DNA of 64,000 bases from an uncultured Maribacter sp. (GTDB lineage: Bacteria > Bacteroidota > Bacteroidia > Flavobacteriales > Flavobacteriaceae). Position 1 is the stretch's first letter; each line of letters opens with the position of its first letter. Shown here piece by piece: positions 12,652 through 29,686 of this stretch. The stretch spans positions 186,001 through 250,000 of the forward strand of contig CANLTE010000003.1 in assembly GCA_947493885.1 (NCBI GenBank), in the 5' to 3' direction. The translations under genes were made by a program, and so were the position numbers. The notes under the pieces were generated by a model. The model had not been told where the DNA came from. It saw only the letters and a program-made list of their open reading frames with translations, and did not search any database.

Positions 12652-13224
12652 ATGAAAATGGTTTTTGAATCTCCAATTAATGCTAATTCAATTAAAATTG
12701 AGCAGTCTCAAAATGAAGAACTGTTTGATGTTTTATACGATTTGTATTATCAGAAATTATACATTTTTGCATATTCATATATTTCTTCAAAAGAAGATGC
12801 TGAAGAAATAATTCAAGACGTTTTTGTTAAACTCTGGAAAAACAAAAACAAACTTTCCTCTGTTTCCAATATTACTGGTTACATTTATACAATAACCAGA
12901 AACAGCTGCTTAGACTTTTTACGAGCAAAGAAAAATGTATTAGCCATTGAGTCTAATATGTTACAACAACAAAACCTTTTAAATTTACATGCCTTATCTG
13001 ATGATCCATCTAGCTTAATTATAGAAAAAGAACTAGAAGCTCAAATAATGATGGAAATCAGCAAACTTCCAGAGAAGTGCAGAATGGTATTTGTGAAAAG
13101 TAGAATAGAAGGTTTAAAGCACAAAGAGATTGCTGAAGATTTAGAAATTTCCACAAGGACTATAGAGAACCACATTTCAAAAGCGTTAAGAGTATTAAAA
13201 AAACGCTTTAAAGATTTTTTTTAA
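12652..13224 (+). CDS. ECF sigma factor, FecI type (Bacteroidota expansion family)
   Basis: The 190-residue sigma factor has region 2 (LYYQKLYIFAYSYISSKEDAEEIIQDVFVKLWKNK, residues about 27-62; only part quoted: EEIIQDVFVKLW) and region 4 (LPEKCRMVFVKSRIEG then HKEIAEDLEISTRTIENH). This is the type that pairs with a FecR anti-sigma and an STN-bearing TonB-dependent transporter, and those two genes follow directly (68 bp, then 84 bp). It should activate the downstream susC-susD operon when the outer-membrane receptor is occupied. It is only distantly related to the sigma pair at 9.4-11.1 kb. Start could also be the ATG at 12658. Confidence 0.93.
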   Translation: MKMVFESPINANSIKIEQSQNEELFDVLYDLYYQKLYIFAYSYISSKEDAEEIIQDVFVKLWKNKNKLSSVSNITGYIYTITRNSCLDFLRAKKNVLAIESNMLQQQNLLNLHALSDDPSSLIIEKELEAQIMMEISKLPEKCRMVFVKSRIEGLKHKEIAEDLEISTRTIENHISKALRVLKKRFKDFF

Positions 13225-13291
13225 AAAAACAGATTTAGAGTAGGGGATACATTTAAATTATACGTCTATATAAAAAAGACTGTTAATTAAA

Positions 13292-14224
13292 ATGAATAAA
13301 AAGGATATATCTAAGCTAGTTGAAGGGCGCCTTGACAATTCCAAAAAAAAGGAGGTCATAGATTCTTTGCTCAAAAATCCTAAACTACAGAAAGAATACC
13401 AAAAAGAAAAAGCTAAACATGTAGCAAGTATGATTGGAGGTGACTTTAATAAAAAACCAAAGAACCCAAAAATTTATGTTAAGCTATTTAAGTATGCTGC
13501 ATTATTTGCTATGCTTGTTTCTGTTGGTTTTATCATAAATGATAATGCTAAAAATGAAAGTGTTGTTGAGAATAAAATGACTTTGGTAACAACTTCTATA
13601 GGGGAAAAGAAAGAAGTTGTTTTATCTGATGGAACAATTGTTACCGTAAATTCTAATAGTGCATTATCATATCCAACAAGTTTTATTGGATCTACTAGGG
13701 AGGTGGTTTTAAAAGGAGAAGCTTTTTTTGATGTAACAGAAAATAAAGAAATGCCGTTTATTGTAAAAACAAATGAAGGCATGGATATAAAAGTGCTCGG
13801 AACAACTTTTAATGTAAAATCATATCCTGAAGATTCTAATATAGAAACAACATTGGTTACTGGTAAAGTAGAAGTAGTAGAAAGGAGTGACAATAAAACT
13901 GTATTTCTTTACCCATCACAAAGAGCTACTTATGTTAAAAATGATGACCAGCTTATAATCGATAAAGTAGATACCGAAAATTACGTCTCATGGAAAGACG
14001 GAAAACTAATTTATGATGAAACACCTTTAAGAGAAGTAATCAAAGGACTGGAAAGAATGTATGATATAACTTTTCAAGTTAAGTCGGAAGAAATTCTCGA
14101 TTATAAATTTAAAGGGACTTTTGACAACTTAAGTATTGAACAAGCAATAGATTTATTTGAACTATCATCACCTATAAAAGGAACCTTAAAAAACAACAAT
14201 GTAACGCTAGACGTTCAAAAATAA
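13292..14224 (+). CDS. FecR-family anti-sigma factor
   Basis: A 310-residue single-pass inner-membrane protein. The N-terminal cytoplasmic part (1-60) should bind the sigma factor; a membrane helix covers about residues 64-82 (KYAALFAMLVSVGFII); the periplasmic FecR domain runs from about 95 to 195 (VLKGEAFFDVTENKEMPFIVKT); a C-terminal DUF4974 domain follows (about 235-305, DETPLREVIKGLERMYDI), the part that contacts the STN domain of the transporter. Length and domain order are normal for the family. It receives the signal from the SusC protein encoded next. Confidence 0.93.
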   Translation: MNKKDISKLVEGRLDNSKKKEVIDSLLKNPKLQKEYQKEKAKHVASMIGGDFNKKPKNPKIYVKLFKYAALFAMLVSVGFIINDNAKNESVVENKMTLVTTSIGEKKEVVLSDGTIVTVNSNSALSYPTSFIGSTREVVLKGEAFFDVTENKEMPFIVKTNEGMDIKVLGTTFNVKSYPEDSNIETTLVTGKVEVVERSDNKTVFLYPSQRATYVKNDDQLIIDKVDTENYVSWKDGKLIYDETPLREVIKGLERMYDITFQVKSEEILDYKFKGTFDNLSIEQAIDLFELSSPIKGTLKNNNVTLDVQK

Positions 14225-14256
14225 AAGGGAAAGTGCTGTAACACTTCCCCTTTAGG
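14224..14256 (+). terminator. Possible attenuating hairpin between fecR and susC
   Basis: AAAGGGAAAGTG and CACTTCCCCTTT pair over 12 positions with one mismatch, just after the fecR stop. The tail is only weakly T-rich (TTTAGGC), so it may attenuate rather than stop transcription, giving susC-susD separate control. Confidence 0.4.
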
Positions 14257-14307
14257 CTATTATTTAGCTTAATTAAATAAGTAAATAACTTAAACTAACT
14301 CAAAATT

Positions 14308-17300
14308 ATGAAAAAAAAGACAAATTTTTTTTCAAAAATCCCTTTATTCCGGATTATGAAAATTTACATGGTATTGACATGTTTTACTTTGATTAAAGTT
14401 TTTGCGTCAGACTTAAACGCTCAAAGTATTTCATTGGACATTTCCAATGCTAAATTGAAGAAAATTCTAACTGAAATTGAAAACAAAAGCAGTTATAGTT
14501 TTTTCTACAATAGCAGCATTGTTAATGTTAATCGAAAAGCATCGGTTAAGGTGCAAAATGTTTCTGTAGACGATGCATTGGACTTATTGTTAAGTAATAC
14601 TGAAATTGATTTTTCCTTTGTAAGGAATCAAATTATTCTATTTCCCAAGAACAACCCAGAACTTAAGAGGAAAATAGAAAATTTGCTTGCTAAGAATGAA
14701 AAGCAAAACCCATTAACTCTTACTCCCGAGAAGATTAATGATATATTGATTGCATCTTTACAAGAGACAATTACAGGTGTCGTTGTGGATGAAAATGGAG
14801 TTCCTGTTCCTGGAGCAAGTGTTGTTGTAAAAAACTCAACCACAGGTACAGCAACCGATTTTGATGGTAATTTTACTCTAGATGCTCCTTCAGATGCAAT
14901 CTTGGTGGTAAGCTATTTAGGATATAAAACTACAGAGGTAGCTGTTAATAATCAGAGTCAATTAACTATAACAATGCAAGAGGATACAGCCTTATTAGAT
15001 GAAGTTGTTGTTGTAGGTTATGGTACTCAGAAAAAAGCAACAGTAACTGGTGCCGTTACAGCGGTAAAAGGAGCCGTATTAGAAGACTCCCCTGCAATTA
15101 GTGTTTCTAATTCATTGGCAGGTCGTTTACCGGGTGTTGTTATTATTCAACAAAGTGGAGAGCCAGGTAATGATGAGTCTACAATTACTATTAGAGGTAA
15201 CAATACTTTTGGAAATAGTGATCCATTGTATGTAATTGATGGAATTCCTGATAGAGCAGGAGGTATTGGGCGAATAAATCCAAACGATATCGAAAATATC
15301 TCAGTTTTAAAGGATGCATCTGCCGCCATATATGGAGCAAGAGCTGCAAATGGTGCTATACTAATTACTACTAAACAAGGTAACTCAGGAAAAACAACGG
15401 TAACATATAATGGTGATTTTGGTTTAAATCAGCCTACATTTGTTCCGGATTTAGCAAGTTCTTCAGAATATGTAGATATAAGAAATGAGTTGCCTATCTA
15501 TAGTTTGCCGTCAAGTGAATGGTCTGCTGCTTCTGCTGCACTCGCCTCTTCAGGAACGTATACTCCAAATGACCCTGACGCTGCTGCAATAAATGCTCCT
15601 TTTAGTCCAGAGGATGTTGAAGGTTATCGTAATGGGGCTGATCCTTATTTATACCCTGATACGGATTGGTTTGATGCTGTTTTTAAAGATTGGGCTTACC
15701 AAACTAAACATAATATTACTATTTCTGGAGGAGGTGAAAAAGTAAAAATGTTCGGCTCTATTGGATATACAGATCAAGAGGGTATTTATAAAAATTCGAG
15801 CAATAGATATCAACAATATGACGCTAGACTTAATACTACAGCAACGATTAACGATTACATTTCTGCTAAGATTGGGGTTGCATATCGTCAGGAAAAAAGA
15901 AGTTTTCCAACAGAAAGTGCTGATGCCATTTTTAGAATGATTATGCGTGGTAAACCTACTGATGTTGCAGTTTGGCCTACAGGAGAACCTGGACCAGATA
16001 TTGAAAATGGTCAACAACCTGTTGTTATCTCCACCAATGCCACTGGATATGATAGAAGAGATACAAACATTTTACAGTTTACATCATCTGTAGATATTAC
16101 TAATCCTTGGGTAGATGGTTTAAAGTTAACTTTATTATCAGCTGTAGATCAAAGATTTTTAAGTAGTAAATTATGGGAAACGCCTTGGGATTTATATACT
16201 TTGGATAGGGATAATTATATTGCTACTGGTGTACCAACATTGTCTGGAGCTCAACGGTCATCATTTACTTCACCACAGTTAAGTCAGGTGCAGATAAATG
16301 ATTTAGATATTAACCTTACAGCCCTATTAGGTTATGATCGAACCTTTGGAGATCATACACTTAATGTTTTGGCTGGTGTAACTAAGGAAACCAGAAATTC
16401 CAAATTTTTACAAGCCAGCAGATTAAATTACCTTTCTCCGTTAATAGATCAGTTAATAGCTGGAGGTGAAGATGGAAAGGAAAACTCAGGATTTGAGATA
16501 GATAACAACAGATTGGGGTATTATGGACGTTTTCAATATAATTATAAAGAAAAATATTTGGCTGAGTTTATTTGGAGATATGATGCCTCATTTATTTTTC
16601 CAGAAAATTCTAGATATGGATTTTTTCCAGGGTTTCTTGCTGGATGGAATGTATCCAGCGAAGATTGGTTTAATGTAAGTTTTATTAATGACTTAAAGCT
16701 AAGAGGTTCTTATGGTGAAATGGGTAACGATGAGGTTCAGCTGAGAGGCGAAAGTTCTACTTTTGCATTTTTAAATTTATATGAATTTGGAAGATATCCT
16801 TTAGGTGGTGCTGTTCAAACTACTTTATCTGAACCGCTTTTAGCAAATCCTGATTTTACATGGGAAAGAGCTAAAAACATAAACCTTGGATTAGATGCAA
16901 GACTTTTTGAAAATAAAGTTAGTGTAGTTTTTGAATATTTTAGAAATAATAGAAATAGCATTCTAATTGATAATCAAGGATCAATTCCACAATCTTCTGG
17001 TATTGTAAATCGTTTACCGCCTGTAAATGCGGGAGAGGTTTCTAATAAAGGTTTTGAATTTGCTGTACATTATTTCGGAGGTAATAGTGATGGTTTCGAG
17101 TATGATTTTGGAATTAATGGTGGTTTGGCAAATAATACAATTGATTTTCTTGATGAGGTTGGTGGAAGACCTGGTTATCAAAACCAAGAGGGTAAGCCCA
17201 TTGGAGCTCATTTTGTATATGAGTCGGATGGAGTTTTCTTGGATCAAGCAGAAATAGACGCTAACAATATAGATTATAGTGCATTGACTCCTACTTTGCG

Positions 17301-17883
17301 TCCAGGAGATATGAAGTTTAGAGATGTTAATAATGACAACGTTATAAATGATTTAGACCAAGTGCGTATGGATGAAAGTGAGACGCCAACCTTTAATTTT
17401 GGAGCAACTTTTAAGGCCTCTTACAAAAATTTTGATTTTTCTATGCTATTGCAAGGAGCTACTGGTGCTTCCAGAAGAATTTATACAGAGTCTGGAGATA
17501 TAGGTAACTATTTAAAATATAGTTATGACAACAGATGGAGTATTGATAATCCAAGTAGTGCTCACCCAAGATTAGCAAGTAGAGCTGATGCTTATTATGC
17601 TAGTACCAGTGGTGGTGGACCTAATGATAGATCATTTGGTAATAACACTTATTTTCTATTTGATAAGGATTATATGCGTTTAAAGAACGTAAGATTATCA
17701 TATAATTTTCCATCTGATTTAATTGAGCCTTTTGGTTTGTCAAAATTTAAGGTTTATGTAAGTGGATTAAACTTAGTGACTTTTGCTAAGAATAAAATTT
17801 ATGACCCAGAACTTAACCAAGGTAATGGTAGAGTATATCCATTAGCAAGGGTAATTAATACGGGGATTAGCTTAACATTTTAA
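14308..17883 (+). CDS. SusC/RagA-type TonB-dependent outer-membrane transporter with STN domain
   Basis: An 1191-residue outer-membrane protein. Order of parts: signal peptide (cleavage near LNAQ, residue 38); STN signalling domain (about 42-115, with LKKILTEIENKSSYSFFYN); an unusually long linker; carboxypeptidase-regulatory-like domain (about 155-230, TGVVVDENGVPVPGASVVVKN); the SusC hallmark D-E-V-V-V-V-G-Y-G-T (about 231-240); plug (to about 360, IRGNNTFGNSDPLYVIDGIP, DASAAIYGARAANGAILITTK); then the beta barrel ending in phenylalanine (GISLTF). The STN domain makes it both transporter and sensor for the FecR/sigma pair upstream. Substrate not predictable from this. Confidence 0.97.
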   Translation: MKKKTNFFSKIPLFRIMKIYMVLTCFTLIKVFASDLNAQSISLDISNAKLKKILTEIENKSSYSFFYNSSIVNVNRKASVKVQNVSVDDALDLLLSNTEIDFSFVRNQIILFPKNNPELKRKIENLLAKNEKQNPLTLTPEKINDILIASLQETITGVVVDENGVPVPGASVVVKNSTTGTATDFDGNFTLDAPSDAILVVSYLGYKTTEVAVNNQSQLTITMQEDTALLDEVVVVGYGTQKKATVTGAVTAVKGAVLEDSPAISVSNSLAGRLPGVVIIQQSGEPGNDESTITIRGNNTFGNSDPLYVIDGIPDRAGGIGRINPNDIENISVLKDASAAIYGARAANGAILITTKQGNSGKTTVTYNGDFGLNQPTFVPDLASSSEYVDIRNELPIYSLPSSEWSAASAALASSGTYTPNDPDAAAINAPFSPEDVEGYRNGADPYLYPDTDWFDAVFKDWAYQTKHNITISGGGEKVKMFGSIGYTDQEGIYKNSSNRYQQYDARLNTTATINDYISAKIGVAYRQEKRSFPTESADAIFRMIMRGKPTDVAVWPTGEPGPDIENGQQPVVISTNATGYDRRDTNILQFTSSVDITNPWVDGLKLTLLSAVDQRFLSSKLWETPWDLYTLDRDNYIATGVPTLSGAQRSSFTSPQLSQVQINDLDINLTALLGYDRTFGDHTLNVLAGVTKETRNSKFLQASRLNYLSPLIDQLIAGGEDGKENSGFEIDNNRLGYYGRFQYNYKEKYLAEFIWRYDASFIFPENSRYGFFPGFLAGWNVSSEDWFNVSFINDLKLRGSYGEMGNDEVQLRGESSTFAFLNLYEFGRYPLGGAVQTTLSEPLLANPDFTWERAKNINLGLDARLFENKVSVVFEYFRNNRNSILIDNQGSIPQSSGIVNRLPPVNAGEVSNKGFEFAVHYFGGNSDGFEYDFGINGGLANNTIDFLDEVGGRPGYQNQEGKPIGAHFVYESDGVFLDQAEIDANNIDYSALTPTLRPGDMKFRDVNNDNVINDLDQVRMDESETPTFNFGATFKASYKNFDFSMLLQGATGASRRIYTESGDIGNYLKYSYDNRWSIDNPSSAHPRLASRADAYYASTSGGGPNDRSFGNNTYFLFDKDYMRLKNVRLSYNFPSDLIEPFGLSKFKVYVSGLNLVTFAKNKIYDPELNQGNGRVYPLARVINTGISLTF

Positions 17884-17893
17884 TTAATTAGTT

Positions 17894-19777
17894 ATGAAAA
17901 AAAGAATATTACTAGGAATTATTTCCGCAGCTATATTGGCAGTGTCATGTAATGATGATTACTTAAATATAGCACCTAAAGATGAAAGAGCTTCATCAGA
18001 TATAACATGGGCAGATGGAGCATTGTCTCAGGCCTTTGTGTTTGGAATATATGCTTCATTAGGTAATGCAGGCTTCGAAGAGGAAGGGCTTTCGGTTTTA
18101 ACTGATGAGGCCATGTTTACACACTCTAATAGAGGAATAAATATTTTTAATGAAGGAACTTCTGCACCAGGTTCACTAGGCAATACAAGAATTATTCCGA
18201 CATGGAATGAATTGTATTCGGCAATAAGAGATACGAATATTGCTATTGAAAATTTACCTGAAGCAACCTTTGATGATGCTGTGTTAAAAGAAACTTTATT
18301 AGGAGAAAGCTACTTTTTAAGAGCTTATTACTATCAACAATTGTTAAGGTACTTTGGTGGTGTTCCATTAGTAGATCGAACGTATGACTTGAATGAAGAT
18401 TACGACCTTGCAAGGAGTTCTTTTGAAGAAACTGTTGGCTTTATTGTAAACGATTTAGATCAGGCAGCTTCAATGCTAGATGGAAAAACTAGAGTAGCAG
18501 GAAGGGCAAGTAGAATTGCTGCTATGGCGTTGAAGGCAAGAGTATTACTTTATGCAGCAAGTGACTTGCATGATGCAGCTACTGCTGGAAATAACTCTTC
18601 GGTATTAGGAAGTTTTTCAGATATTAATTTGGTAGCTATATCAACTGGAAGTCAAGCTGAGCGTTGGACAACCGCTAAAGATGCGGCAAAAGCTGTTTTA
18701 GATGAGGCAGCAGGAACATATGGTTATAAATTTGGACTTACGTCTCCAGTAACTGCAGAGGAAGGTAGGGAAAACTATATTTCATTAGCCTTAGGTGGTG
18801 GTAGCGCAGTTGGTGATACTGACGCTGCAAGTGATTTAATTTGGGAACGTACTCATTCGGAATTATATGTTGAGGAAAATGAATGGCCTTTAGGTGGGAT
18901 AAATGTCGGTGTTAATAATGGTCCTAATGGGTACCATAACTGGGCAGGAAATACACCTATTCAACAGTTGGTTGATGATTACGAAATGATGGATGGTTCT
19001 AAATTTGATTGGAATAATGCAACTCATGCTGCAGACCCTTTCGCTGATAGAGATCCTAGATTTTATGGTACTGTACTTTATGATGGTGCAGATTGGAAGC
19101 CTAGGCCAGATGATGTACTCAGTTTTGATACTGCAGATCAGGTTCAAACAGGTTCTTATGATGATGGCTCTGGAGGAACTATTGCTGGTGTTGACACAAG
19201 ACAATCACCAGTTGAAGATTGGAATGGCAGTAGAACCGGATACTATGTGAGAAAATTTATTGACCCAGATGCAGCTTTGGTAGACAACAGATCTAATGCG
19301 CAATTAGTACCTTGGCCATTTATCAGATATACAGAAGTTGTTTTGAACTATGTTGAAGCATGTATAGAAACAGGAGATGAAGCGGAAGCATTGGACTGGT
19401 TAAATCAGATTAGGTATAGAGTTGGTATGCCTGCCATTGCAGATACTGGTGATGCTCTTCGAGATAGATATAGAAACGAGAGACGTGTGGAACTTGCATA
19501 TGAAGAACATAGATTTTTTGATGCAAGACGTTGGATGATTGCTCAGGAAACCTTAGGAAGAGGAATAAAAGTAATGCAGGCAGCTGCAACTTTAAAGCCA
19601 GGAGCAACACCTCATGTACCGTACAGACATGATAAGGCAGTATATGATTATACCTATACAGTTGTTAATAATACAGATATTGAAACTAGAACATGGGATG
19701 ATAAAATGTATTATAGAGCAATTGAATCTGATGAAATAAGTAAAAACTCTTTATTAGTACAGAATCCAGGTTATTAA
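17894..19777 (+). CDS. SusD/RagB-type surface lipoprotein
   Basis: A 627-residue lipoprotein partner that caps the SusC barrel and binds the substrate outside the cell. The lipobox is AAILAVSC with C19, followed by NDDYLN typical of SusD. The TPR-like helical core is clear (WNELYSAIRDTNIAIENL about residue 105-122; ESYFLRAYYYQQLLRYFGGVPLV about 140-160), and the C-terminal part has the family ERRVELAYEEHRFFDARRW motif (about 530-550). It begins 10 bp after susC, so the two are co-expressed. Confidence 0.96.
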   Translation: MKKRILLGIISAAILAVSCNDDYLNIAPKDERASSDITWADGALSQAFVFGIYASLGNAGFEEEGLSVLTDEAMFTHSNRGINIFNEGTSAPGSLGNTRIIPTWNELYSAIRDTNIAIENLPEATFDDAVLKETLLGESYFLRAYYYQQLLRYFGGVPLVDRTYDLNEDYDLARSSFEETVGFIVNDLDQAASMLDGKTRVAGRASRIAAMALKARVLLYAASDLHDAATAGNNSSVLGSFSDINLVAISTGSQAERWTTAKDAAKAVLDEAAGTYGYKFGLTSPVTAEEGRENYISLALGGGSAVGDTDAASDLIWERTHSELYVEENEWPLGGINVGVNNGPNGYHNWAGNTPIQQLVDDYEMMDGSKFDWNNATHAADPFADRDPRFYGTVLYDGADWKPRPDDVLSFDTADQVQTGSYDDGSGGTIAGVDTRQSPVEDWNGSRTGYYVRKFIDPDAALVDNRSNAQLVPWPFIRYTEVVLNYVEACIETGDEAEALDWLNQIRYRVGMPAIADTGDALRDRYRNERRVELAYEEHRFFDARRWMIAQETLGRGIKVMQAAATLKPGATPHVPYRHDKAVYDYTYTVVNNTDIETRTWDDKMYYRAIESDEISKNSLLVQNPGY

Positions 19778-19840: not shown

Positions 19841-19853
19841 ACATTGTATGTAT

Positions 19854-22800
19854 ATGAAAATTAAGAATAAATGCCTCTTTTGGATAATTCCATTCGTTTA
19901 TCTAGGATTACATTCTAGTTGCAATCACCAAGAAAAAAGTGCCAAATTAGAAAAGGAAAAGAATCCGAAAGTCAAGTTGTTTGCACTTTTATCTCCTGAT
20001 TCTACAAATGTTTATTTTGAAAACCACTTGCAAGAAAACATGAATGTAAATGTTTTAATGTATGAGTATTTATACAATGGTGGTGGAGTAGCAGCTGGCG
20101 ATTTCAATGATGATAACAAAATAGACCTTTATTTCACTTCTAATTTAGAAGAAAACAAACTTTACCTAAATCAAGGTAATTTTAAGTTTAAAGATGTTAC
20201 AAAGGAATCTAATACCTCTGGAAGAAAAGGGCCATGGAAAACTGGTGTTACTTCCGTTGATGTAAACGGAGATGGCAAACTGGATATCTATGTTTGTTAT
20301 TCAGGAGCGCTACCAGAAGCTAAAAGAAAAAATCAACTATTTATAAACCAAGGGAACAAAAATGGTATTCCATACTTTGAGGACGAAAGTGAAAAATACG
20401 GACTAGCTAGTGCGGCATTTAGTAACCAAGCTCATTTTTTTGATTATGATCATGATGGAGATTTAGATGCACTTTTGCTAAATCATAATCCAAAATCTTT
20501 ACCAGTTCTAAACGAAATAACAACTGCTAAAACTTTAAAAATTGCCGATTCTTTACGGGGTCTGCGCCTATATCAACAGAATAATGGCATATTTAAAGAT
20601 ATTACTGAAGATTCTGGAATTAGCGGCTCTTCTTTAAGTTATGGCCTTGGTTTATGTATTAGTGATGTTAACAATGATGGCTGGGTAGATTTTTATGTGT
20701 CAAATGACTATACCATACCAGATTACCTATACATTAACAATAAAGATGGTACGTTTTCTGATAAAATTGCTGAAAGCATGGGGCATATCAGTCATTTTTC
20801 AATGGGAAATAACATTGTTGACATTAATAATGATGGTTGGCAAGATATTTTCACATTGGATATGCTTCCTGAAGATAATCAACGCCAAAAATTATTACTA
20901 GCGCCAGACAACTATGAAAAATTCGATCTAAATATTAGAAGCGGTTTCCATTCGCAATATATGCGTAATATGCTTCAGTTAAATAATGGAAATGGCACGT
21001 TCAGTGAAATTGGTCAATTTGCAGGAATATCTAATACAGATTGGAGTTGGGCCCCACTTTTTGCGGATTTTAATAATGATGGTTGGAAGGATTTATTTGT
21101 ATCCAACGGTTATTTTAGAGATTATACCAATTTAGATTTTATTAATTATATGGAAAATTACGTCCAATCCAAGGGTAGATTAAAAAGAGAGGACGTTCTT
21201 GAAATAATAAAAAAAATGCCTTCTTCTGATATTCATAACTATATGTTTATCAATAATAAAGGAATTAGCTTTAGAGATAAAACATTAGATTTTGGTATGG
21301 ACGAAGCATCCAATAGTAATGGAGCTGCCTATGCTGATTTGGATAATGATGGTGATTTAGATTTAATTGTTAATAACATAAATAAACCTGCATTTATTTA
21401 TGAAAATAAATCTCCTTTATCCAATAGCAGTTATCTAAAAATAAAATTAGAAGGAGTAGATAAAAATACAAGTGGTATAGGTTCTAAGGTTGTTTTGTAC
21501 AATAATGGCAAACAGCAGAACGTTGAACAAATTTCTACTAGGGGGTATTTATCTACAGTATCTAACATTCTTCATTTTGGTTTAGGGAATATTAAAGTGG
21601 TTGACTCTCTTCATGTTTTATGGAATACTGGTAAACAACAAAGTTTATATCAAGTTAATACAAATCAGCTGCTTACTTTAAAAGAATCCGAAGCTAGTAT
21701 TATTAAGTACAAGAAAAACAGTGTTGCAACTGTTTTCAATGAAATTAAATCTCCAATATCTCACAAGAATATTAGTTTAGAAATTAACGATTTTAAAAGA
21801 CAACCTTTATTATTAAGTGAATTTTCACATCAAGGTACAATTGTAAAAAAAGAGGATGTTAATAGTGATGGAAGAGAAGATGTGTTCGTTGGAGGAGAAA
21901 AAGGACAAGCGTCTAAAATATATCTCCAAACAGCTGGGAATAAATTTTCAAAAATACACATAGAAGATTTTGAAAAGGATAAAGAATTTATAGATAGTGA
22001 TGTCGTTTTTCTGGATGCAAATTTAGATGGAAATCAGGATATTTACATTGCTAGTGGAGGTTATCATGACTATGAAGAGAATTCTGAACTGCTGCAGGAT
22101 AGATTATACTATGGAGATGGAAAAGGTAGCTTTGCAAAAGTAAATAATACTATCCCAAATGTGAGGGGAAGTAAAGGATGTATAGCGTCAAATGACATAA
22201 ACCAAGATGGTTATATGGATTTATTTATTGGAGGAAGAGTTGTTCCTGGAAGATATCCTGAAGCTCCTCAAAGTTTTTTCTTGTTAAATGATGGAAAAGG
22301 AAATTTCATAAACAAAACCAATAGTATATCAAAAGAAGTAAAACATTTAGGAATGATTACTGATGCCACTTGGGTTGATATTAATGGCGATTCGGTTGAA
22401 GATTTAATACTAGTTGGAGAATGGATGCCAATAAAAATATTTATTAATGAAAACGGAAAACTTGTAGATAAAACCGACGATTACTTTAAAAAAGAATATA
22501 AAGGTTGGTGGAATACTATAGCTGTAAACGATTTTAACAAAGATGGTAAGCTTGATTTTATGATAGGTAATATTGGAAATAACTCCCAATTTAAAGTGAG
22601 TCATAAGGAACCAGCAGAAATGTATTATGGTGATTATGATAAAAATGGTGCAGTGGACCCCTTATTTTGTTATTACGTTCAAGGAAAAAGTTACCCCTAC
22701 TTAACAAGAGGAGAGTTATTGGGGCAATTAGGTAGTTTACGGTCTAAATTTAGTTCTTACGAAAGCTATTCACAGGCAACAATCAAAGATGTTTTGAGTG

Positions 22801-23195
22801 CCGAACAACTAAAAGCATCAAATAAGCTTGAAATGAATCATGATGTAACCTCACTTTTTTTAAGCAACCCTGATGGCTCTTATGAACTGGCAAGTTTACC
22901 AAAAGAATCTCAGTTTTCCAATATAAACACCATCCAAACAATAGATGTTAATTCAGATGGCAATGATGATGTTTTACTCTTCGGAAATAACAATCACTAT
23001 AAATTACGACTTGGAAAATCAGATGCTAATTATGGTGTTTTACTTATGGGAGATGGTAAGGGTAATTTTGAATATATAAATCAAATAAAATCAGGTTTTA
23101 ATGTTAAAGGAGAAGTAAGTAGTAGTATCATGATAAACAATTTACTGTTTCTTGGACTTCAAAACGATGAATTAAAAGCATATAAACTTAATTAA
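19854..23195 (+). CDS. Giant FG-GAP/VCBS-repeat lipoprotein with ASPIC/UnbV domain
   Basis: About 1113 residues. The lipobox ends LGLHSSC (C about residue 25 from the ATG at 19854; an ATG at 19848 is two codons earlier). At least thirteen calcium-binding-type loops of the pattern D-x-N-x-D-G-x-x-D-(L/I) are visible (for example DVNGDGKLDIYV, DFNNDGWKDLFV, DINQDGYMDLFI), expected to fold as two beta propellers, with an ASPIC/UnbV domain between them (about residues 540-615, GIGSKVVLYNNGK, HFGLGN). It should sit on the cell surface. Function unknown; gene order links it to the SusC/SusD pair and to the haloperoxidase that starts 3 bp after it. Confidence 0.9.
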   Translation: MKIKNKCLFWIIPFVYLGLHSSCNHQEKSAKLEKEKNPKVKLFALLSPDSTNVYFENHLQENMNVNVLMYEYLYNGGGVAAGDFNDDNKIDLYFTSNLEENKLYLNQGNFKFKDVTKESNTSGRKGPWKTGVTSVDVNGDGKLDIYVCYSGALPEAKRKNQLFINQGNKNGIPYFEDESEKYGLASAAFSNQAHFFDYDHDGDLDALLLNHNPKSLPVLNEITTAKTLKIADSLRGLRLYQQNNGIFKDITEDSGISGSSLSYGLGLCISDVNNDGWVDFYVSNDYTIPDYLYINNKDGTFSDKIAESMGHISHFSMGNNIVDINNDGWQDIFTLDMLPEDNQRQKLLLAPDNYEKFDLNIRSGFHSQYMRNMLQLNNGNGTFSEIGQFAGISNTDWSWAPLFADFNNDGWKDLFVSNGYFRDYTNLDFINYMENYVQSKGRLKREDVLEIIKKMPSSDIHNYMFINNKGISFRDKTLDFGMDEASNSNGAAYADLDNDGDLDLIVNNINKPAFIYENKSPLSNSSYLKIKLEGVDKNTSGIGSKVVLYNNGKQQNVEQISTRGYLSTVSNILHFGLGNIKVVDSLHVLWNTGKQQSLYQVNTNQLLTLKESEASIIKYKKNSVATVFNEIKSPISHKNISLEINDFKRQPLLLSEFSHQGTIVKKEDVNSDGREDVFVGGEKGQASKIYLQTAGNKFSKIHIEDFEKDKEFIDSDVVFLDANLDGNQDIYIASGGYHDYEENSELLQDRLYYGDGKGSFAKVNNTIPNVRGSKGCIASNDINQDGYMDLFIGGRVVPGRYPEAPQSFFLLNDGKGNFINKTNSISKEVKHLGMITDATWVDINGDSVEDLILVGEWMPIKIFINENGKLVDKTDDYFKKEYKGWWNTIAVNDFNKDGKLDFMIGNIGNNSQFKVSHKEPAEMYYGDYDKNGAVDPLFCYYVQGKSYPYLTRGELLGQLGSLRSKFSSYESYSQATIKDVLSAEQLKASNKLEMNHDVTSLFLSNPDGSYELASLPKESQFSNINTIQTIDVNSDGNDDVLLFGNNNHYKLRLGKSDANYGVLLMGDGKGNFEYINQIKSGFNVKGEVSSSIMINNLLFLGLQNDELKAYKLN

Positions 23196-23197
23196 GA

Positions 23198-24535
23198 ATG
23201 AAAATTAAAAATTATAGATTTTGGTCTATGGCCCTTTTGTGGATAATAATCATGGGTTGTACTAGAAAAAGTAATATTATTTCAAAAGAAGATGTGGCTA
23301 TTGAATGGTCAAAAATGAGTTTATTTATCACACAATATACGCCTTCAAATTCGCCCACATTTGCTTCTAGAGCATTTGGTTATATTGGTTTAACCATGTA
23401 CGAATCTATTGTGAATGGATATGATACGCACAATTCTCTTTCTGGTCAGTTAAACGAATTATCAAATCTACCAAAACCAATTGACGGAAAGGAATATAAT
23501 TGGATTTTAGCATTAAACGCTGGTCAAGCTACAATTCTCAAAAACATCTATATTCAAACATCAGATGAAAATAAAATGAAAATTGACTCTTTAGAAAACG
23601 AAATAAAAACTTTGTATTCTGACCAAGATGGAGAGGTCGTTAATCGCTCAATATCTTATGGAAAATCAGTGGCAGAGGCAATTTTTAATTGGTCAAAAAC
23701 TGATGGAGGACATAGGGGGTATCTCTATAATTTTGACAAAGAGGCGGTGCATCCGAACAGACCTGGTTCATGGAAACCTCCACTGTTTGCACAGTCATTT
23801 AGTCATTATCCATTACACCCCCATTGGGGAGAAAACAGGACTTTTTTAAAAGAACATATGAATTTAGAAACTCCCTATATGATTCCCTATGATACAGTTC
23901 CAGAGTCTCCATATTATAAAGAGTTTTTAGAAGTTTATAAGAAAGATTTAGAACTTACTCAAGAAGAAAAAGAAGCTGCTATTTGGTGGGGAGATGACCC
24001 AGATGTAACTTTTACTCCTCCAGGGCATTCATATTATTTAGCAACCGTTGCCATTGAAAAATCAAAACCTGAGCTAATGAAAATAGCAGAAGTATATGCT
24101 AAAGTTAGTATTGCTGTAGCTGATTCTTTTATTAATTGTTGGAAATGGAAATATCACTTCTTTTCTGAAAGGCCTAATACTTTTATTCCTCAATATATTG
24201 ATAAAGAGTGGGAATCTTTTTGGCCAGACCCTCCTTTTCCTTGCTTTCCATCTGGTCATGCTATTAATGCTGGATCTTCAGCAACAGTTTTGGAAAATGA
24301 GTTTGGAGAAAATTTCAGTATTATAGATAGAGCTCATGAAGGTAGAGAACGAGATGAAGTAAGAGATACCGATTTTGTTATTCGTCATTTTAATTCCTTC
24401 AAGGAGGTTGCTCAAGAAACCGCTGATTCTCGTTTTTATGGAGGAATACATACCGCTCAAGATAACAATGTAGGTTTAGATGAAGGGGCTAAAATAGCCC
24501 AAAACGTTATTAATTTAAATTGGTACTCTAAATAG
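23198..24535 (+). CDS. Vanadium-type haloperoxidase / PAP2-superfamily lipoprotein
   Basis: A 445-residue protein with lipobox WIIIMGC. All three vanadate- or phosphate-binding motifs of the vanadium-haloperoxidase / PAP2 fold are present: K318-x6-R325-P, P351-S-G-H354, and S411-R412-x5-H418 (SRFYGGIH). In known haloperoxidases the last histidine binds vanadium and the PSGH histidine is the acid-base; they oxidise halide with hydrogen peroxide. The length (about 445) fits the bacterial haloperoxidase group rather than small PAP2 phosphatases. Halide preference cannot be read from the sequence, and phosphatase activity is not excluded. Tightly packed between two FG-GAP genes (2 and 5 bp gaps). 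Confidence 0.88.
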   Translation: MKIKNYRFWSMALLWIIIMGCTRKSNIISKEDVAIEWSKMSLFITQYTPSNSPTFASRAFGYIGLTMYESIVNGYDTHNSLSGQLNELSNLPKPIDGKEYNWILALNAGQATILKNIYIQTSDENKMKIDSLENEIKTLYSDQDGEVVNRSISYGKSVAEAIFNWSKTDGGHRGYLYNFDKEAVHPNRPGSWKPPLFAQSFSHYPLHPHWGENRTFLKEHMNLETPYMIPYDTVPESPYYKEFLEVYKKDLELTQEEKEAAIWWGDDPDVTFTPPGHSYYLATVAIEKSKPELMKIAEVYAKVSIAVADSFINCWKWKYHFFSERPNTFIPQYIDKEWESFWPDPPFPCFPSGHAINAGSSATVLENEFGENFSIIDRAHEGRERDEVRDTDFVIRHFNSFKEVAQETADSRFYGGIHTAQDNNVGLDEGAKIAQNVINLNWYSK

Positions 24536-24540
24536 TAATA

Positions 24541-26202
24541 ATGAATCGTTGTTTTATACTTGTTTTATTTTTTTTGAGTGTTGGTAGTTATGCTCAGAAT
24601 GGATTTACAGACATTACTCAGGAATCAGGAATTGATCATCAATTTATTGTTTATGAAGGTACTTTTGGAGGTGGTGCCGTCGCCTTTGATATTAACAACG
24701 ATGGTTTTGAAGATTTGTTTATTACAAGCGGAACTGCGGAGGATGTTTTGTATCTAAATAATGGAGACGGGACATTTAAAAATATATTCCAAAACTCTGG
24801 CTTAGAAATAACCAAAAATTATGTCACTCAAGCTGCGGTTAGTGCAGATGTAAATAAAGACGGATTTAGAGATTTATTTATCACTACCATAAATACTATG
24901 GATAGCACTTCTGTAATTCCTAGAGCTAAAAACCTTTTATTTTTAAATAATGGTGATTTGACTTTTAAGGATGCTACTTCCCAATTTGGTTTAGATCAGT
25001 TTAATTCTTTCAGTACAGGTGCAAGTTTTGGAGATGTAAATGCTGACGGCTACCCAGATTTATATGTTGGAAATTATTTTGTTGAGTTTACGGGGAAACT
25101 TGGAATTTTAAAAGATGCCACCATTGCGAGTGCTAATCAAACATCAAAAGATTACCTTTTTATTAATAAAGAGGGAAAATATTTTAATAATGAATATGAA
25201 GAATACAATTTAGGGCATAAAGGCTTCGGTTTTGGAGGCGTATTTACAGATTATAATAATGATGGGAATCAAGATATTATTGTGAACAACGATTTTGGCT
25301 ACAAAGCTGTTCCTAATTTTTTATACGAGAATAAGTCCTTTTGGGATGAATTTAAAGATGTAAGTAAGCAGCACGAAATGGATTTAAAGATGAATGCAAT
25401 GGGAGCAGCTGTGGGTGACTTTGATTCTGATGGCTTTCTTGATTATTTTATAACCAATATTAAGTTTAATTTTTTAATGCATAATAAGGGTGAGGGAACC
25501 CCTTTTATTAATGTCGCAAAAGAAAAAGGTGCCTACAATTTTGCTATAAGCTGGGGAGCAAATTTTGCTGACTTTGATCATGATTTGGATTTAGATTTAT
25601 ATGTATCCAATGGAGACTTAAATCCTAATTGTACTCCAATGGCTAACTTCTATTATGAAAATGATGATGCATCTTTTATTGAAGTCGCTAGCTTAAAAAA
25701 TATTAATGACCCTGGTATTGGTCGTGGTTCGGTTACTTTTGATATGGATAACGATGGAGACTTAGATTTATTAGTGGTTAACCAAAAACCTATTTATAGT
25801 TATCACGCATCATCGGTAACTAAATTGTTTAGAAATGATAATACAGAAGGTAATTGGTTAAAGGTTGAATTAAAAGGAAATAAATCGGATACTAATGGAA
25901 TAGGAGCAAGAGTAGAAGTCACTGCTGGTGATAAACATTTAATAAGAGAAATTGACGGAGGAAACTCCAGTCACATGTCTCAAAATTCGGTTATTGCTCA
26001 CTTTGGACTAGCCAATATTGAATCCATTGATGAAATATTAGTAGTCTGGCCCGGAGGAAAAAAACAGGCTTTAGAAAATCCTTCAGTTAATAGTTTAGTT
26101 ACAATTACCGAAATAGAGGGTAAAAATTTTAGTATTTGGTATTTACTCATATTAGTTCCTATTGCTTTCTTCATAATTCGATTTATAAAAAATATAAAGT
26201 GA
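24541..26202 (+). CDS. CRTAC1-like FG-GAP/ASPIC-UnbV protein with C-terminal membrane helix
   Basis: A 553-residue secreted protein: signal peptide (to about residue 19, GSYAQ), one seven-bladed-type propeller with repeats such as DINNDGFEDLFI, DVNKDGFRDLFI, DVNADGYPDLYV and DMDNDGDLDLLV, then an ASPIC/UnbV domain (about 440-510, NGIGARVEVTAGDK, HFGLANIESIDEILVVWPGGKKQ). Unlike the larger lipoprotein it ends with a hydrophobic helix (IWYLLILVPIAFFIIRFI) and a basic tail (KNIK), which would anchor it in a membrane or serve as a sorting signal. It is the second propeller protein around the haloperoxidase. Confidence 0.9.
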   Translation: MNRCFILVLFFLSVGSYAQNGFTDITQESGIDHQFIVYEGTFGGGAVAFDINNDGFEDLFITSGTAEDVLYLNNGDGTFKNIFQNSGLEITKNYVTQAAVSADVNKDGFRDLFITTINTMDSTSVIPRAKNLLFLNNGDLTFKDATSQFGLDQFNSFSTGASFGDVNADGYPDLYVGNYFVEFTGKLGILKDATIASANQTSKDYLFINKEGKYFNNEYEEYNLGHKGFGFGGVFTDYNNDGNQDIIVNNDFGYKAVPNFLYENKSFWDEFKDVSKQHEMDLKMNAMGAAVGDFDSDGFLDYFITNIKFNFLMHNKGEGTPFINVAKEKGAYNFAISWGANFADFDHDLDLDLYVSNGDLNPNCTPMANFYYENDDASFIEVASLKNINDPGIGRGSVTFDMDNDGDLDLLVVNQKPIYSYHASSVTKLFRNDNTEGNWLKVELKGNKSDTNGIGARVEVTAGDKHLIREIDGGNSSHMSQNSVIAHFGLANIESIDEILVVWPGGKKQALENPSVNSLVTITEIEGKNFSIWYLLILVPIAFFIIRFIKNIK

Positions 26203-26206
26203 TTTA

Positions 26207-27808
26207 ATGAAAAACTTCAGAATAACCTTCTTTTTTTTAATCACTTCTTTCGTCCTTTTTTCCCAAGATGTTAATTACGTCACAGGGAAGTTGGTTGATT
26301 TTAATACACAAGAGTCAATTCCATATGCCACGATACGCTTCAAAGAAAAGGCAATTGGAGTAATTACCAATTTAGAGGGGGATTTTAGAATTCCTAAGAG
26401 TTACTTGAGCAAGAAAATAGTACTTTCTATTTCATCTCTGGGATATGAAAGTTTAGAAGTAAAAATGTCTGAATTAGCCCAAAATGAAATTAATATTATC
26501 AGACTTAAGGAAGAAGCTATTTCTCTAAATGAGGCTATAGTTATTGCTAAAGACAAAAAAAAACTTAATGCTAAAAAAATAGTTAAAAAGGCTATAAAAG
26601 CAATTCCTAATAATTATTCTATTTCAGCATTTACTTTAACTGGTTATTATCGGGATTATCAGCTAGATAAAGACATGTATGTGAATTTAAATGAAGCTTT
26701 ATTGGAAGTTTTTGATGGCGGTTTTAATTCAAAAGATTCTGAAACCATAAAAGTTCTGCTTAGAGAATATAGATCAAACAATGATTTTAAAATAGATTCT
26801 TTATCACGTCAAGGTTATAATTATAGTACTGGACAAAAAACTATTAAAAACGCTTATATAAATGGGTATGGTGGTAACGAATTTATTATACTGAGAGCTC
26901 ATGATGCCATAAGAAATTATAAGATTGGGTCGTACAATTTTGTTGATATAATGAAGTTGGATTTTGTTGGCAATCATACTTTCTTTTTACATAATTCAAT
27001 ATCCGTTAACGGTGAGCAATTATATGTAATTCATTTTCGAAAAAGTCATAAGAACTTTAAAGCTAAAGGGAAATTATACATATCTAAAAAAGATTTTGCA
27101 ATCCATAATATGGAATATTCGATGTATAATATTAATGACAAAACTAAAAAGCAGATAGGAGATTTTATTAAAACTAAAACAAGTAAAGAGATTGATGAAC
27201 AGTTAATTTTTAAAGTAATTACTGAATATAGAAGGGTTGATGATAAAATGTATTTAAACTATATATCCTTTCAAAATAACTTTGAATTAGTGCTACCACC
27301 TATATTTAAAGTATTGGATGTTGTTGTTAATATTAAAAGAAAATGTATTGAAGTTAAATTTAATCAGCAACCTGAAAGTTTAAGTGCCCATCTAAAAGAC
27401 AACTACTTAGTTAAGTATAAAAACAAAACACTAAATTTAAAACCAATTGATCTAGATTTAAAGAAAAATGCCGTGTTTTTACACCCCGACCTAAATGAAG
27501 AAGAATTAGAAAAAATGATAGAATTTTTCCTCAAAGTCTCTGGAAAAAAGAATGAACTATCGCAGCTTTTAGATGTAAAAGTTCACAATATTTATAGTAA
27601 TAGCGGGAACCTTATTCATCAAAGAAAAAGAAAAAATTATTATCAGCACCGGGAGTTTTTTGTTCAACAAATTAGCAGGAAAGGTAAACTTCCATTAAAT
27701 GAACAATTTATGGATTTAAACAAGCCTATTTATAATAATAATATTAATAACGTTTCCGAAAATATTGATTATTGGATGAATACTCCATTATTGTCCAACA
27801 AAAACTAA
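26207..27808 (+). CDS. Carboxypeptidase-regulatory-like domain protein, envelope
   Basis: A 533-residue protein with a signal peptide (to about residue 20), then a CarboxypepD_reg-like beta-sandwich (about 23-105, VTGKLVDFNTQESIPYATI). The segment after it (EEAISLNEAIVIAKDKKKLNAKKIVKKAI) and the middle region (TGYYRDYQ, EALLEVFDGG) match a flavobacterial group of envelope proteins of unknown role. The rest is mixed alpha/beta and rich in K and N, without a barrel-like pattern. It follows the CRTAC1-like gene by 4 bp and is the last gene of the tight cluster before a 160-bp gap. Confidence 0.75.
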   Translation: MKNFRITFFFLITSFVLFSQDVNYVTGKLVDFNTQESIPYATIRFKEKAIGVITNLEGDFRIPKSYLSKKIVLSISSLGYESLEVKMSELAQNEINIIRLKEEAISLNEAIVIAKDKKKLNAKKIVKKAIKAIPNNYSISAFTLTGYYRDYQLDKDMYVNLNEALLEVFDGGFNSKDSETIKVLLREYRSNNDFKIDSLSRQGYNYSTGQKTIKNAYINGYGGNEFIILRAHDAIRNYKIGSYNFVDIMKLDFVGNHTFFLHNSISVNGEQLYVIHFRKSHKNFKAKGKLYISKKDFAIHNMEYSMYNINDKTKKQIGDFIKTKTSKEIDEQLIFKVITEYRRVDDKMYLNYISFQNNFELVLPPIFKVLDVVVNIKRKCIEVKFNQQPESLSAHLKDNYLVKYKNKTLNLKPIDLDLKKNAVFLHPDLNEEELEKMIEFFLKVSGKKNELSQLLDVKVHNIYSNSGNLIHQRKRKNYYQHREFFVQQISRKGKLPLNEQFMDLNKPIYNNNINNVSENIDYWMNTPLLSNKN

Positions 27809-27970
27809 TTTTATCATTATTTAACCGTAAAATATTTTCCGCTAGTGATATGTTTTCTTCCCAATATAATGCTAGTTTTATTGTTTATTAAAAGGATAAT
27901 ATAAGGTATAGAATTATAAAATTAGTTTGTTATTTTTATTCATCACTTCATATATAACACCTTATAAACA

Positions 27971-29686
27971 ATGACTTCTTCTGAAAAATATTTTTCAATT
28001 TCAGTAAACATATTTTTTTTAACATTAACATTTTATACAGGGTTATCTCAAACTATACCTTATCTAAAAAAAGAGCTAAATAAAACGCAACTAATTGTTG
28101 ATGATAAGCCCTTTTTAATCTTAGGAGGAGAATTCTCTAATTCCATAAGCGGAAGTATTGAGCATATGTCTCCAACTTCAGAGCCATATCCCCGAAAAAA
28201 GTATACTATGGTAAATGGTAGCCTCGGCAATGATAGTAGTAAAAATATGGATTATGATGGTTCCGTATGGAATCAAATGAAGGACTTAAATGTAAATACA
28301 GCTCTAGTGGCTATTTCATGGGAAATGATAGAACCTGAAGAAGGCAAGTTTGATTTTTCTGTAGTGGATGCAATTTTAAAAGGAGCTAGAGAAAAAAATA
28401 TTAAAATAATTCCACTGTGGTTTGGGTCTTGGAAAAATGGAATGTCTAGCTATGTGCCCTTATGGGTTAAAAAGGACTATAAACGTTTTCCTAGAAGTAA
28501 AACAAAAAAGAGTGGTAGTGTTGAAGTGTTATCTCCATTTAGCGTAGAAGCCAGAAATGCCGATGCTAAAGCTTTTGCCGCCTTAATGAAGCATATTAAA
28601 AAAAATGATAGTAATCATAGAACAGTAATTATGGTTCAAGTAGAGAATGAAGTAGGCTTGTTAGATGATTCCAGAGATCGTTCTACTGTTGCAAACAAAC
28701 TGTTTAATAGTGAAGTCCCTAATGATTTAATGAACTACTTAGTTAACAATAGAAAAGTATTAATGCCACAATTAAAGGAAATGTGGACGTTAATGGGAAG
28801 CAAAAAGTCAGGAAGTTGGTCGCAAGTTTTTGGTTCTAGTATTTGGACTGATTTGGTTTTTACCTCTTGGCATTATGCTAACTACATGAACTATGTTGCT
28901 AAAGCGGGTAAAAATGAATATAACTTACCCATGTTTGTTAATGCGTGGCTAGAGTATGAAGATAGGCCAAACCCTGGTGGTTTTCCTACAGGCGGTCCAT
29001 TACCTAGGGTAAAAGATATTTGGAAATCGGGTGCTCCAGATATAGATTTTTTGAGTCCTGATATTTACGGGGGTGATTTTGTAAAATGGTGTAATGAATA
29101 TACATCTCAAGGAGACCCCTTATTTATTCCTGAAACTTGGTGGACAAAACCTGAGTATGTAGCCTATATGTTTTATGCAATTGGAAACTATAACACTTTA
29201 GGTGTTGCTCCCTTTGGTATAGATAGGGTTAACCCTAAAGAAGAACCCTTATTGGCTGAAATGTATAGTGCTGTAAATTATTTATCTAACGATATTAATG
29301 AGAACCAGGGGAATAAAGATAAAATGACCGCATTTTTACTTAATTCAGAAAAACCTTTTACTGAATTTAAAATGGGGGATTATTTGGTAAAAGCAGAATT
29401 ATACAAAAGAAGAGGTAGTTATAGAGTAGAGGATGCTTACGGTATAATTATTAGAACAGGAGCTAATGAATTTACAGTTACAGGTAGTAAGGCCGTTGTT
29501 AGCTTTAAATCTTTAGATAAAAAAAGTAAAGCAGGTATTGGTCCCGTAGATGAATATATTGAGTATGATGGGAATTGGATTAAGGGACGTAGGTTAGGAG
29601 GAGATGAAACTAATAGAGGTATTGGAGTATTTCTCCCAGTAGAAGGAATTGGTGTTCAAAAAGTAATAACTTACAAGTACAAATAA
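27971..29686 (+). CDS. Glycoside hydrolase, GH35-like with DUF5597
   Basis: A 571-residue secreted enzyme (signal peptide to about residue 28) with a clan GH-A (beta/alpha)8 barrel: substrate strand LIVDDKPFLILGGEFSNS, then VNTALVAISWEMIEPEEGKFDF. The acid/base is predicted as E227 in QVENEVG (after N226) and the nucleophile as E388 in PETWW. The C-terminal 130 residues form the DUF5597 beta-sandwich. Such proteins act as beta-galactosidases or related exo-enzymes in flavobacterial polysaccharide loci. It lies 160 bp behind the cluster, so it may share or lack its control. Confidence 0.85.
   Translation: MTSSEKYFSISVNIFFLTLTFYTGLSQTIPYLKKELNKTQLIVDDKPFLILGGEFSNSISGSIEHMSPTSEPYPRKKYTMVNGSLGNDSSKNMDYDGSVWNQMKDLNVNTALVAISWEMIEPEEGKFDFSVVDAILKGAREKNIKIIPLWFGSWKNGMSSYVPLWVKKDYKRFPRSKTKKSGSVEVLSPFSVEARNADAKAFAALMKHIKKNDSNHRTVIMVQVENEVGLLDDSRDRSTVANKLFNSEVPNDLMNYLVNNRKVLMPQLKEMWTLMGSKKSGSWSQVFGSSIWTDLVFTSWHYANYMNYVAKAGKNEYNLPMFVNAWLEYEDRPNPGGFPTGGPLPRVKDIWKSGAPDIDFLSPDIYGGDFVKWCNEYTSQGDPLFIPETWWTKPEYVAYMFYAIGNYNTLGVAPFGIDRVNPKEEPLLAEMYSAVNYLSNDINENQGNKDKMTAFLLNSEKPFTEFKMGDYLVKAELYKRRGSYRVEDAYGIIIRTGANEFTVTGSKAVVSFKSLDKKSKAGIGPVDEYIEYDGNWIKGRRLGGDETNRGIGVFLPVEGIGVQKVITYKYK

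Follow-up and report, generated by a model that had tools for sequence, protein, structure and literature searches.

The stretch analysed here (the window) comprises 64,000 nucleotides of contig CANLTE010000003.1 from an uncultured Maribacter sp., and the locus under study occupies positions 12652-29686 on its + strand (Table 1). It encodes an adjoining SusC-SusD pair, as in a SusCD uptake locus, followed by a 1115-amino-acid (aa) FG-GAP/UnbV protein (FGGAP), a member of the vanadium haloperoxidase (VHPO) family and a CRTAC1-like FG-GAP/UnbV protein (CRTAC). Domains were called with Pfam and NCBIfam. All of the genes named in a first-pass annotation of this DNA open where that annotation placed them on the + strand, and their families were borne out by the domain calls; the 533-aa CarbopepD_reg_2 gene was missing from its description. 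From the FecI gene through the GH35 gene, the coordinates give intergenic gaps of 67, 83, 10, 70, 2, 5, 4 and 162 base pairs (bp). Gaps of 2-5 bp, as claimed earlier, are therefore found from FGGAP onward (2, 5 and 4 bp), whereas SusC-SusD (10 bp) and SusD-FGGAP (70 bp) are spaced more widely. The window also contains a full signalling set of extracytoplasmic function (ECF) sigma factor, FecR and STN-SusC transporter, which most orthologs do not show. From the comparisons given below we conclude that the locus represents a genuine SusCD variant, conserved in many bacteria and equipped with a VHPO-family enzyme, and that this variant is wider than the first-pass annotation could see.

Table 1. 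Genes of the window locus, with positions counted from the first nucleotide of the window
Product	Position	Strand	Domains and remarks
ECF sigma factor, FecI type	12652..13224	+	TIGR02985; local regulator outside the conserved block
FecR-type anti-sigma factor	13292..14224	+	FecR and FecR_C domains
SusC with N-terminal STN domain	14308..17883	+	STN and plug; TIGR04056, 910.8 bits
SusD lipoprotein	17894..19777	+	SusD_RagB; export-signal-like N terminus (C-NDDYL)
FGGAP, 1115-aa FG-GAP/UnbV lipoprotein	19848..23195	+	FG-GAP_3 (7 stretches) and UnbV_ASPIC; no clear export signal
VHPO-family lipoprotein, 445 aa	23198..24535	+	PAP2 (Pfam); K318, R325, S352, G353, H354, R412, H418, also D422
CRTAC, 553 aa, CRTAC1-like FG-GAP/UnbV	24541..26202	+	FG-GAP_3 (5 stretches) and UnbV_ASPIC; C-terminal hydrophobic segment and basic tail
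CarbopepD_reg_2 protein, 533 aa	26207..27808	+	Local addition; counterpart only in L052
GH35-family beta-galactosidase-like enzyme	27971..29686	+	Glyco_hydro_42 and DUF5597 (Pfam), GH35_fam (NCBIfam); local addition, counterpart only in L052

Named genomes were scanned with the window VHPO, which yielded 72 ortholog loci from Flavobacteriaceae, Saprospiraceae, Cyclobacteriaceae, Chitinophagaceae, Spirosomataceae and others; marine as well as freshwater genera of Bacteroidota are represented. Because the scan matched exact peptide words of the window VHPO, this set is biased to close relatives. Fifty-one loci have 8.5 kb or more of sequence upstream and 1.5 kb or more downstream. In 49 of these 51 the order SusC-SusD-FGGAP-VHPO-CRTAC was kept on one strand, and the remaining two retain the genes in a rearranged form (SusCD is divergent in L040 and VHPO-CRTAC lies ahead of FGGAP in L050). 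FGGAP was immediately upstream of VHPO in 61 of the 64 loci with room for it, with a median gap of 2 bp (exceptions L043, L050 and L054), and CRTAC followed VHPO immediately in 64 of the 68 that had room (median gap -13 bp; exceptions L043, L054, L061 and L074). At L052, another uncultured Maribacter locus, the VHPO shares 97% identity with that of the window. In a sample of the phylum, 85 of 395 genomes contained VHPO kin at E ≤ 1e-10. Three matches besides the own genome exceeded 700 bits and the whole block was present at all three; the next four (478-536 bits, three genomes) stand alone. From these data we conclude that the conserved unit is SusC-SusD-FGGAP-VHPO-CRTAC. The first-pass annotation had coupled the haloperoxidase to SusCD and had named beforehand, as one of two points on which this idea stood or fell, conservation of the block with SusCD in other genomes; the neighbourhood survey was run, and both the coupling and the block survived it.

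The genes that flank this unit in the window were assessed in the same way. FecI and FecR were found in a minority of ortholog loci (FecR at 7 of 72, with many loci ending short upstream), and a GntR/Peripla_BP_3-type regulator was present upstream of SusC at 19 of the 72. A counterpart of the GH35 gene was seen only at L052 among the 72 ortholog loci and the 80 survey loci described below, and the 533-aa gene likewise had a counterpart only in L052. These genes were therefore rejected as members of the block. Thus the FecI-FecR pair described earlier is present in the window and lies outside the conserved unit, and the glycosidase, which starts 162 bp past the 533-aa gene, was correctly placed outside the tight group. 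No carbohydrate-active enzyme is part of the conserved unit, which sets it apart from a strictly defined polysaccharide utilisation locus. Downstream of the block, 21-23 loci share genes for a TetR-like regulator and for proteins that by eye resemble TolC, HlyD and RND efflux components, which we treated as the shared neighbourhood of close relatives. Upstream of the window FecI gene lie two further ECF sigma genes (9360-9986 and 10498-11079), an HhH-GPD DNA repair gene (11308-11994, - strand) and a gene for an AhpC/TSA-family peroxiredoxin (12005-12457).

Three ion-binding motifs had been reported in the window VHPO, and K318-x6-R325-P, PSGH354 and SR412-x5-H418 are all present exactly as claimed. 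Residues K318, R325, S352, G353, H354, R412 and H418 are invariant columns of a 54-sequence alignment that includes the window protein, and these seven residues, the VHPO ligand set, are also invariant in all 21 block rows of a wider alignment; P326 is kept in just 16 of the 21. By themselves the motifs cannot separate a VHPO from a phosphatase. A search of the Protein Data Bank (PDB) with the single window sequence matched only 4cit and 4usz, the vanadium iodoperoxidase of Zobellia galactanivorans (4cit, E 4.4e-50), and a search with a 54-row profile returned 15 sequences at E ≤ 0.1, all of which were VHPOs or the VHPO homolog NapH3, with no phosphatases. The AlphaFold2 model of the window VHPO (pLDDT 86.9, pTM 0.88) has the full-length helical VHPO fold. 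Its best fold match was again 4cit (E 1e-20, query TM-score [TMq] 0.74 over 425 columns). Next came chloroperoxidases, NapH3 and a further halogenase (E 9.3e-12 to 3.4e-9); all 17 fold matches at E ≤ 0.001 were VHPOs or VHPO homologs. Acid phosphatases appeared from E 6.8e-3, with a TMq of ~0.3 over ~230 columns or about half the length, while algal bromoperoxidases matched weakly (E 1.8e-2 or more). The model does not have the class A acid phosphatase fold of ~220 residues with no extra helical domain. Sequence and fold thus uphold the vanadium-haloperoxidase assignment at the family level; halide oxidation by the block enzyme is putative.

An alternative is that the block VHPO is not a haloperoxidase in the cell, acting instead as a phosphatase through the same oxyanion site, or as a NapH3-like rearrangement catalyst, on phosphorylated or oxygenated SusCD cargo. 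PSGH together with His-x3-Asp is found in 21 of 21 block rows, compared with Pro in 11 and Asp in 1 of the 37 other FG-GAP-linked (FG-linked) rows, and the Asp, Asp422, completes a motif that we take to be common to acid phosphatases and fungal chloroperoxidase. Pfam assigns the window protein solely to PAP2 and NCBIfam gives no match, the fold matches include NapH3 as well as 3bb0, the phosphate-intermediate form of apo-chloroperoxidase, and the periplasmic site predicted below would suit such an activity better than it suits hypohalite. However, the sequence and fold kin are VHPOs, the acid phosphatases align poorly and over only part of the protein, and the nearest relative of solved structure is titled an iodoperoxidase. 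We consider this alternative rather unlikely.

We also surveyed VHPO kin outside the block, using 80 stretches hand-picked among the best matches in the phylum sample (about half of the rows listed, some genomes being represented several times). The survey yielded 82 VHPO-kin genes plus an own-genome paralog; three of the 82 are block genes, leaving 79. There was no VHPO call at three stretches: L182, which is only a neighbouring stretch, and L171 and L200, where the gene was missed by the open reading frame (ORF) caller. Linkage was scored as a same-strand FG-GAP gene within three genes and, for SusD, within five genes; opposite-strand FG-GAP genes (L155 and L196) were excluded from the count, as was the L171 genome, in which two FGGAP matches lie just ahead of the VHPO match. 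By this rule 37 of the 79 non-block genes have a linked FG-GAP gene. These represent 10 of the 16 families and 20 of the 38 genera, and SusD is also present for 14 of the 37. Giant FGGAP matches number 151 in 40 genomes (E ≤ 1e-60), from which chance linkage is estimated at ~0.6%, assuming 4000 genes per genome and six neighbour slots and counting giant FGGAP only, whereas the rule admits weaker FG-GAP genes too. Linkage among non-block genes is not universal, being absent from families f10 (0/8), f5 (0/6), f23 (0/4), f28 (0/3), f7 and f34 (each 0/1) and low in f19 (2/7) and f4 (3/13). In L236 (7979-19356), three FGGAP genes of 1116, 1119 and 1101 aa (lengths from the ORF caller) and then a VHPO gene form a tight four-gene tandem with gaps of 0-7 bp. 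Its VHPO is 98.8% identical to 4cit over 425 residues, as measured on the copy in L199, and was taken for the Zobellia iodoperoxidase gene or a near copy. The own-genome paralog of 4cit type (L105) is 71.5% identical to 4cit and has no FG-GAP neighbour.

In the VHPO tree the block forms a single clade (21 rows, SH-aLRT 99), with 4cit and the other FG-linked rows elsewhere, and in a FastTree phylogeny of FGGAP the block is again its own clade (19 rows). A single clade of all 58 FG-linked rows, block included, was rejected (p-AU 9e-7), and at least nine changes, gains or losses, are needed; hence FG-GAP linkage arose or was lost repeatedly. The own genome also encodes a natural fusion of 1344 aa (L106, 8130-12164, - strand) that joins an FG-GAP/UnbV part to a divergent VHPO part, the latter called as DUF6851 with a weak VCPO_2nd match, and ends in a type IX sorting tail. 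The VHPO part alone had matches in 16 other class genomes of the 198 searched. As a general type the CRTAC-VHPO fusion was rejected, since among the 17 class genomes matched a whole-query match was obtained only in the own genome; the profiles used gave no FG-GAP signal in six regions from six other genomes, where two ORFs are cut by the stretch.

These results bear on the possibility that the FG-GAP/UnbV proteins themselves are the target of the enzyme or hold it in place, with SusCD secondary and VHPO plus FG-GAP forming a module that can be combined with various uptake systems. For 23 of the 79 non-block genes, that of the 4cit-like locus included, there is an FG-GAP neighbour but SusD is missing from the five nearest genes, and the own-genome fusion and the repeated gain or loss of linkage point the same way. 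On the other hand, a single gain followed by many losses may also account for the pattern, and FGGAP follows SusC-SusD in six own-genome triads that have no VHPO (see below). We regard such a module as quite improbable as the full explanation.

Other arrangements were seen among the surveyed loci. VHPO genes occur as pairs in L180, L212, L214 and L220, each pair combining a gene of 443-456 aa with a divergent one of 510-552 aa. In the last three loci the pair is separated by one or two genes of 312-369 aa, and the two intervening genes of L220 have no Pfam match. In family f25 (L172, L185, L186, L188, L194 and L216) an FGGAP-VHPO pair precedes genes of 202-274 and 327-328 aa, which in L172 encode HmuY-like and PaaA/PaaC-like proteins. 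A row in L169 (3713-14235) consists of FGGAP, GH65, VHPO, an MFS transporter, a MIP-family channel and an FGGY kinase, the last two being GlpF/GlpK-like by eye.

Both FG-GAP proteins of the block have FG-GAP repeats followed by UnbV_ASPIC, the arrangement of CRTAC1/ASPIC proteins. FG-GAP repeats usually bind calcium. Murine CRTAC1 was the best PDB fold match of FGGAP (E 2.3e-25, target TM-score 0.69), with other propeller proteins ranked lower at low TM-scores, and CRTAC1 (9etn) was the sole PDB sequence match at E ≤ 0.001 for both FGGAP and CRTAC. The AlphaFold2 model of FGGAP (pLDDT 82.6) places strands at ~80-520 and 660-1115, flanking the UnbV region (543-610, Pfam), and FGGAP thus apparently consists of two propellers around UnbV_ASPIC. 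Six further SusC-SusD-FGGAP triads (L107-L112) without VHPO are present in the own genome, their FGGAPs being 37-42% identical to that of the window, with GH2 genes or hybrid two-component sensors downstream of four of the six. Since these triads contain no VHPO, FGGAP has a role with SusCD alone.

According to PMC5080379, surface lipoproteins of Bacteroidota have acidic residues directly past the lipid Cys, the SusD consensus of Flavobacterium johnsoniae being SDDFE, and the export signal was tested there in Capnocytophaga; its transfer to Maribacter is a prediction. We scored two or more acidic residues at positions +2 to +6 from the lipid Cys, leaving out rows with no recognised lipid Cys (SusD 1/53, FGGAP 3/58 and VHPO 2/67). 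An export-signal-like N terminus was found in 38 of 52 SusD rows, 8 of 55 FGGAP rows and 19 of 65 VHPO rows. Past the Cys, the window SusD reads NDDYL and the window VHPO TRKSN, with no acidic residue; the signal is thus absent from the window VHPO and from most VHPO and FGGAP rows. The C terminus of CRTAC contains a hydrophobic segment, mostly with a basic tail, that was above the cut-off in 62 of 66 rows and at or just below it in the other four, and the protein is predicted to be anchored in the inner membrane facing the periplasm. Because the export signal is mostly absent from VHPO and FGGAP, and because of the CRTAC segment, all three proteins are predicted to lie on the periplasmic side, and VHPO probably acts just inside the outer membrane on imported material. 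The surface or extracellular haloperoxidase envisaged in the first-pass annotation is therefore unsupported by these sequence features.

A further alternative, in line with that annotation in placing the enzyme at the surface, is that it consumes peroxide and produces hypohalous acid or iodine, whether to defend the cell, to detoxify halogenated compounds of algae or to accumulate iodine, SusCD being a mere neighbour. The rarity of clear export signals and the near-strict linkage to one SusCD pair (49/51) both argue against this, and the block is carried by Flavihumibacter and Sediminibacterium (the order being changed in L050), which we take to be freshwater or soil genera. Because of these genera, the tie to algae or halogen-rich sea water that had been suggested does not appear to be specific. 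PMC9296495 does describe upregulation of Zobellia vIPO3 with A. nodosum. Overall, we consider surface halogenation quite improbable for the block.

Genes flanking the 72 block loci vary by lineage and include GH2 LacZ-type enzymes (6), GH36 (2), GalK (4), GalT (1), GlpD (3) and DUF1080 (8), with GH92-GH28-GH115 at L045 and a sulfatase at L070. GalK, GalT, GlpD, LacZ or GH36 genes were near 9 of the 72 block loci and 0 of the 80 survey loci, a comparison in which the queries were drawn from block loci, flank lengths differ between the sets and three of the survey loci are themselves block loci, also with no hits. Each of 40 genomes contains a single GlpD match, which in three of them lies next to the block, whereas GalK is beside the block in four of the 40 (two from one genus group and two with the same gene set), a second GalK match being present in seven. 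The galactose and glycerol genes hint at a galactoside cargo. GlpD, GH36 and LacZ stand in a row at L042, and GalK, LacZ and GlpD at L077; as a lead only, these combinations would suit alpha- and beta-linked galactosyl-glycerol. GH65 genes were found at eight survey loci and 0 of the 72 block loci and, with the MIP and FGGY genes of L169, point to other sugars in other VHPO loci.

We tentatively propose, at somewhat less than an even chance, that the block is an uptake-and-processing operon in which a periplasmic VHPO-family lipoprotein, beside two FG-GAP/UnbV proteins, modifies cargo imported by SusCD, likely peroxidatively. SusD, as a surface lid, and SusC, as the outer-membrane transporter, would bring bulky glycoside-type cargo into the periplasm. 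There the VHPO-family lipoprotein of the outer membrane would sit next to FGGAP, in the same membrane, and CRTAC, in the inner membrane, and would modify the cargo, the most likely reaction being an oxidation that depends on vanadate and peroxide. The proposal builds on the gene order and its conservation, the VHPO fold and ligand set, and the repeated linkage between FG-GAP genes and VHPO kin; we infer that the cargo is the substrate of the enzyme, that the reaction is a peroxidative one and that galactose, and perhaps glycerol, is part of the cargo.

Several observations weigh against this proposal. Over 367 aligned residues the block enzyme shares 35% identity with 4cit, Asp422 is present in 21 of 21 block rows compared with 1 of 37 other FG-linked and 17 of 39 stand-alone rows, and its nearest sampled relatives stand alone, with neither FG-GAP nor SusCD. 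The cargo hint is post hoc and comes from a small number of independent lineages, and the window itself shows nothing of it apart from GH35. With respect to location, 19 of the 65 VHPO rows do have at least two acidic residues after the Cys, and the contrast is weaker in the own-genome triads (SusD 3 of 5 with a recognised Cys, FGGAP 2 of 6). Moreover, diffusible hypohalous acid in the cell's own periplasm would be harmful. A broader version of the operon proposal, which we consider unlikely, is that Bacteroidota VHPOs, the Zobellia iodoperoxidase included, are largely dedicated partners of CRTAC1-type propellers in a periplasmic oxidative module, which in the block would be tied to SusCD and to a galactosyl-glycerol-type cargo such as a galactolipid head group.

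The first-pass annotation regarded the role of SusCD-haloperoxidase loci as not established, and our literature searches yielded no account of VHPO-SusCD or VHPO-FG-GAP loci, with most subscription papers outside their scope and an earlier description therefore possible. The survey reveals a recurrent genetic setting for bacterial haloperoxidases, in that 37 of 79 non-block genes lie beside an FG-GAP/UnbV gene and one subfamily is nearly always found with SusC-SusD. The role of these VHPOs is thereby open to testing by growth, localisation and pull-down experiments. Such a setting could place vanadium or phosphatase-type chemistry within nutrient uptake rather than defence or natural-product synthesis, and it supplies a candidate partner for bacterial CRTAC1-like proteins.

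Of the known systems, the Z. galactanivorans vanadium iodoperoxidase (4cit, 4usz) is closest to the block enzyme, belonging to the same family with the same ligand set and being its top match in sequence and fold; a gene 98.8% identical to 4cit also lies behind three FGGAP genes. The block enzyme differs in its 35% identity over 367 residues, its PSGH motif and Asp422, its SusCD context and its separate clade. Fungal chloroperoxidase, bacterial VCPO and NapH3 share the fold (E 9.3e-12 to 3.4e-9) and the oxyanion-site residues, although the block enzyme is only 14-18% identical to them in structural alignment. Those enzymes belong to biosynthetic or secreted contexts. CRTAC1, cartilage acidic protein 1 (9etn), resembles the two propeller proteins in combining FG-GAP repeats with UnbV/ASPIC, whereas the block proteins are bacterial and are either a lipoprotein with apparently two propellers (FGGAP) or predicted to be membrane-anchored (CRTAC). 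The six own-genome triads share the three leading genes with the block but have neither VHPO nor CRTAC. Finally, the block resembles a polysaccharide utilisation locus in that SusC-SusD is followed by lipoproteins and, in some lineages, by GH2, GH36, GH92-GH28-GH115 or sulfatase genes downstream, but its core contains no carbohydrate-active enzyme, and the enzyme that it does contain is of the VHPO family.

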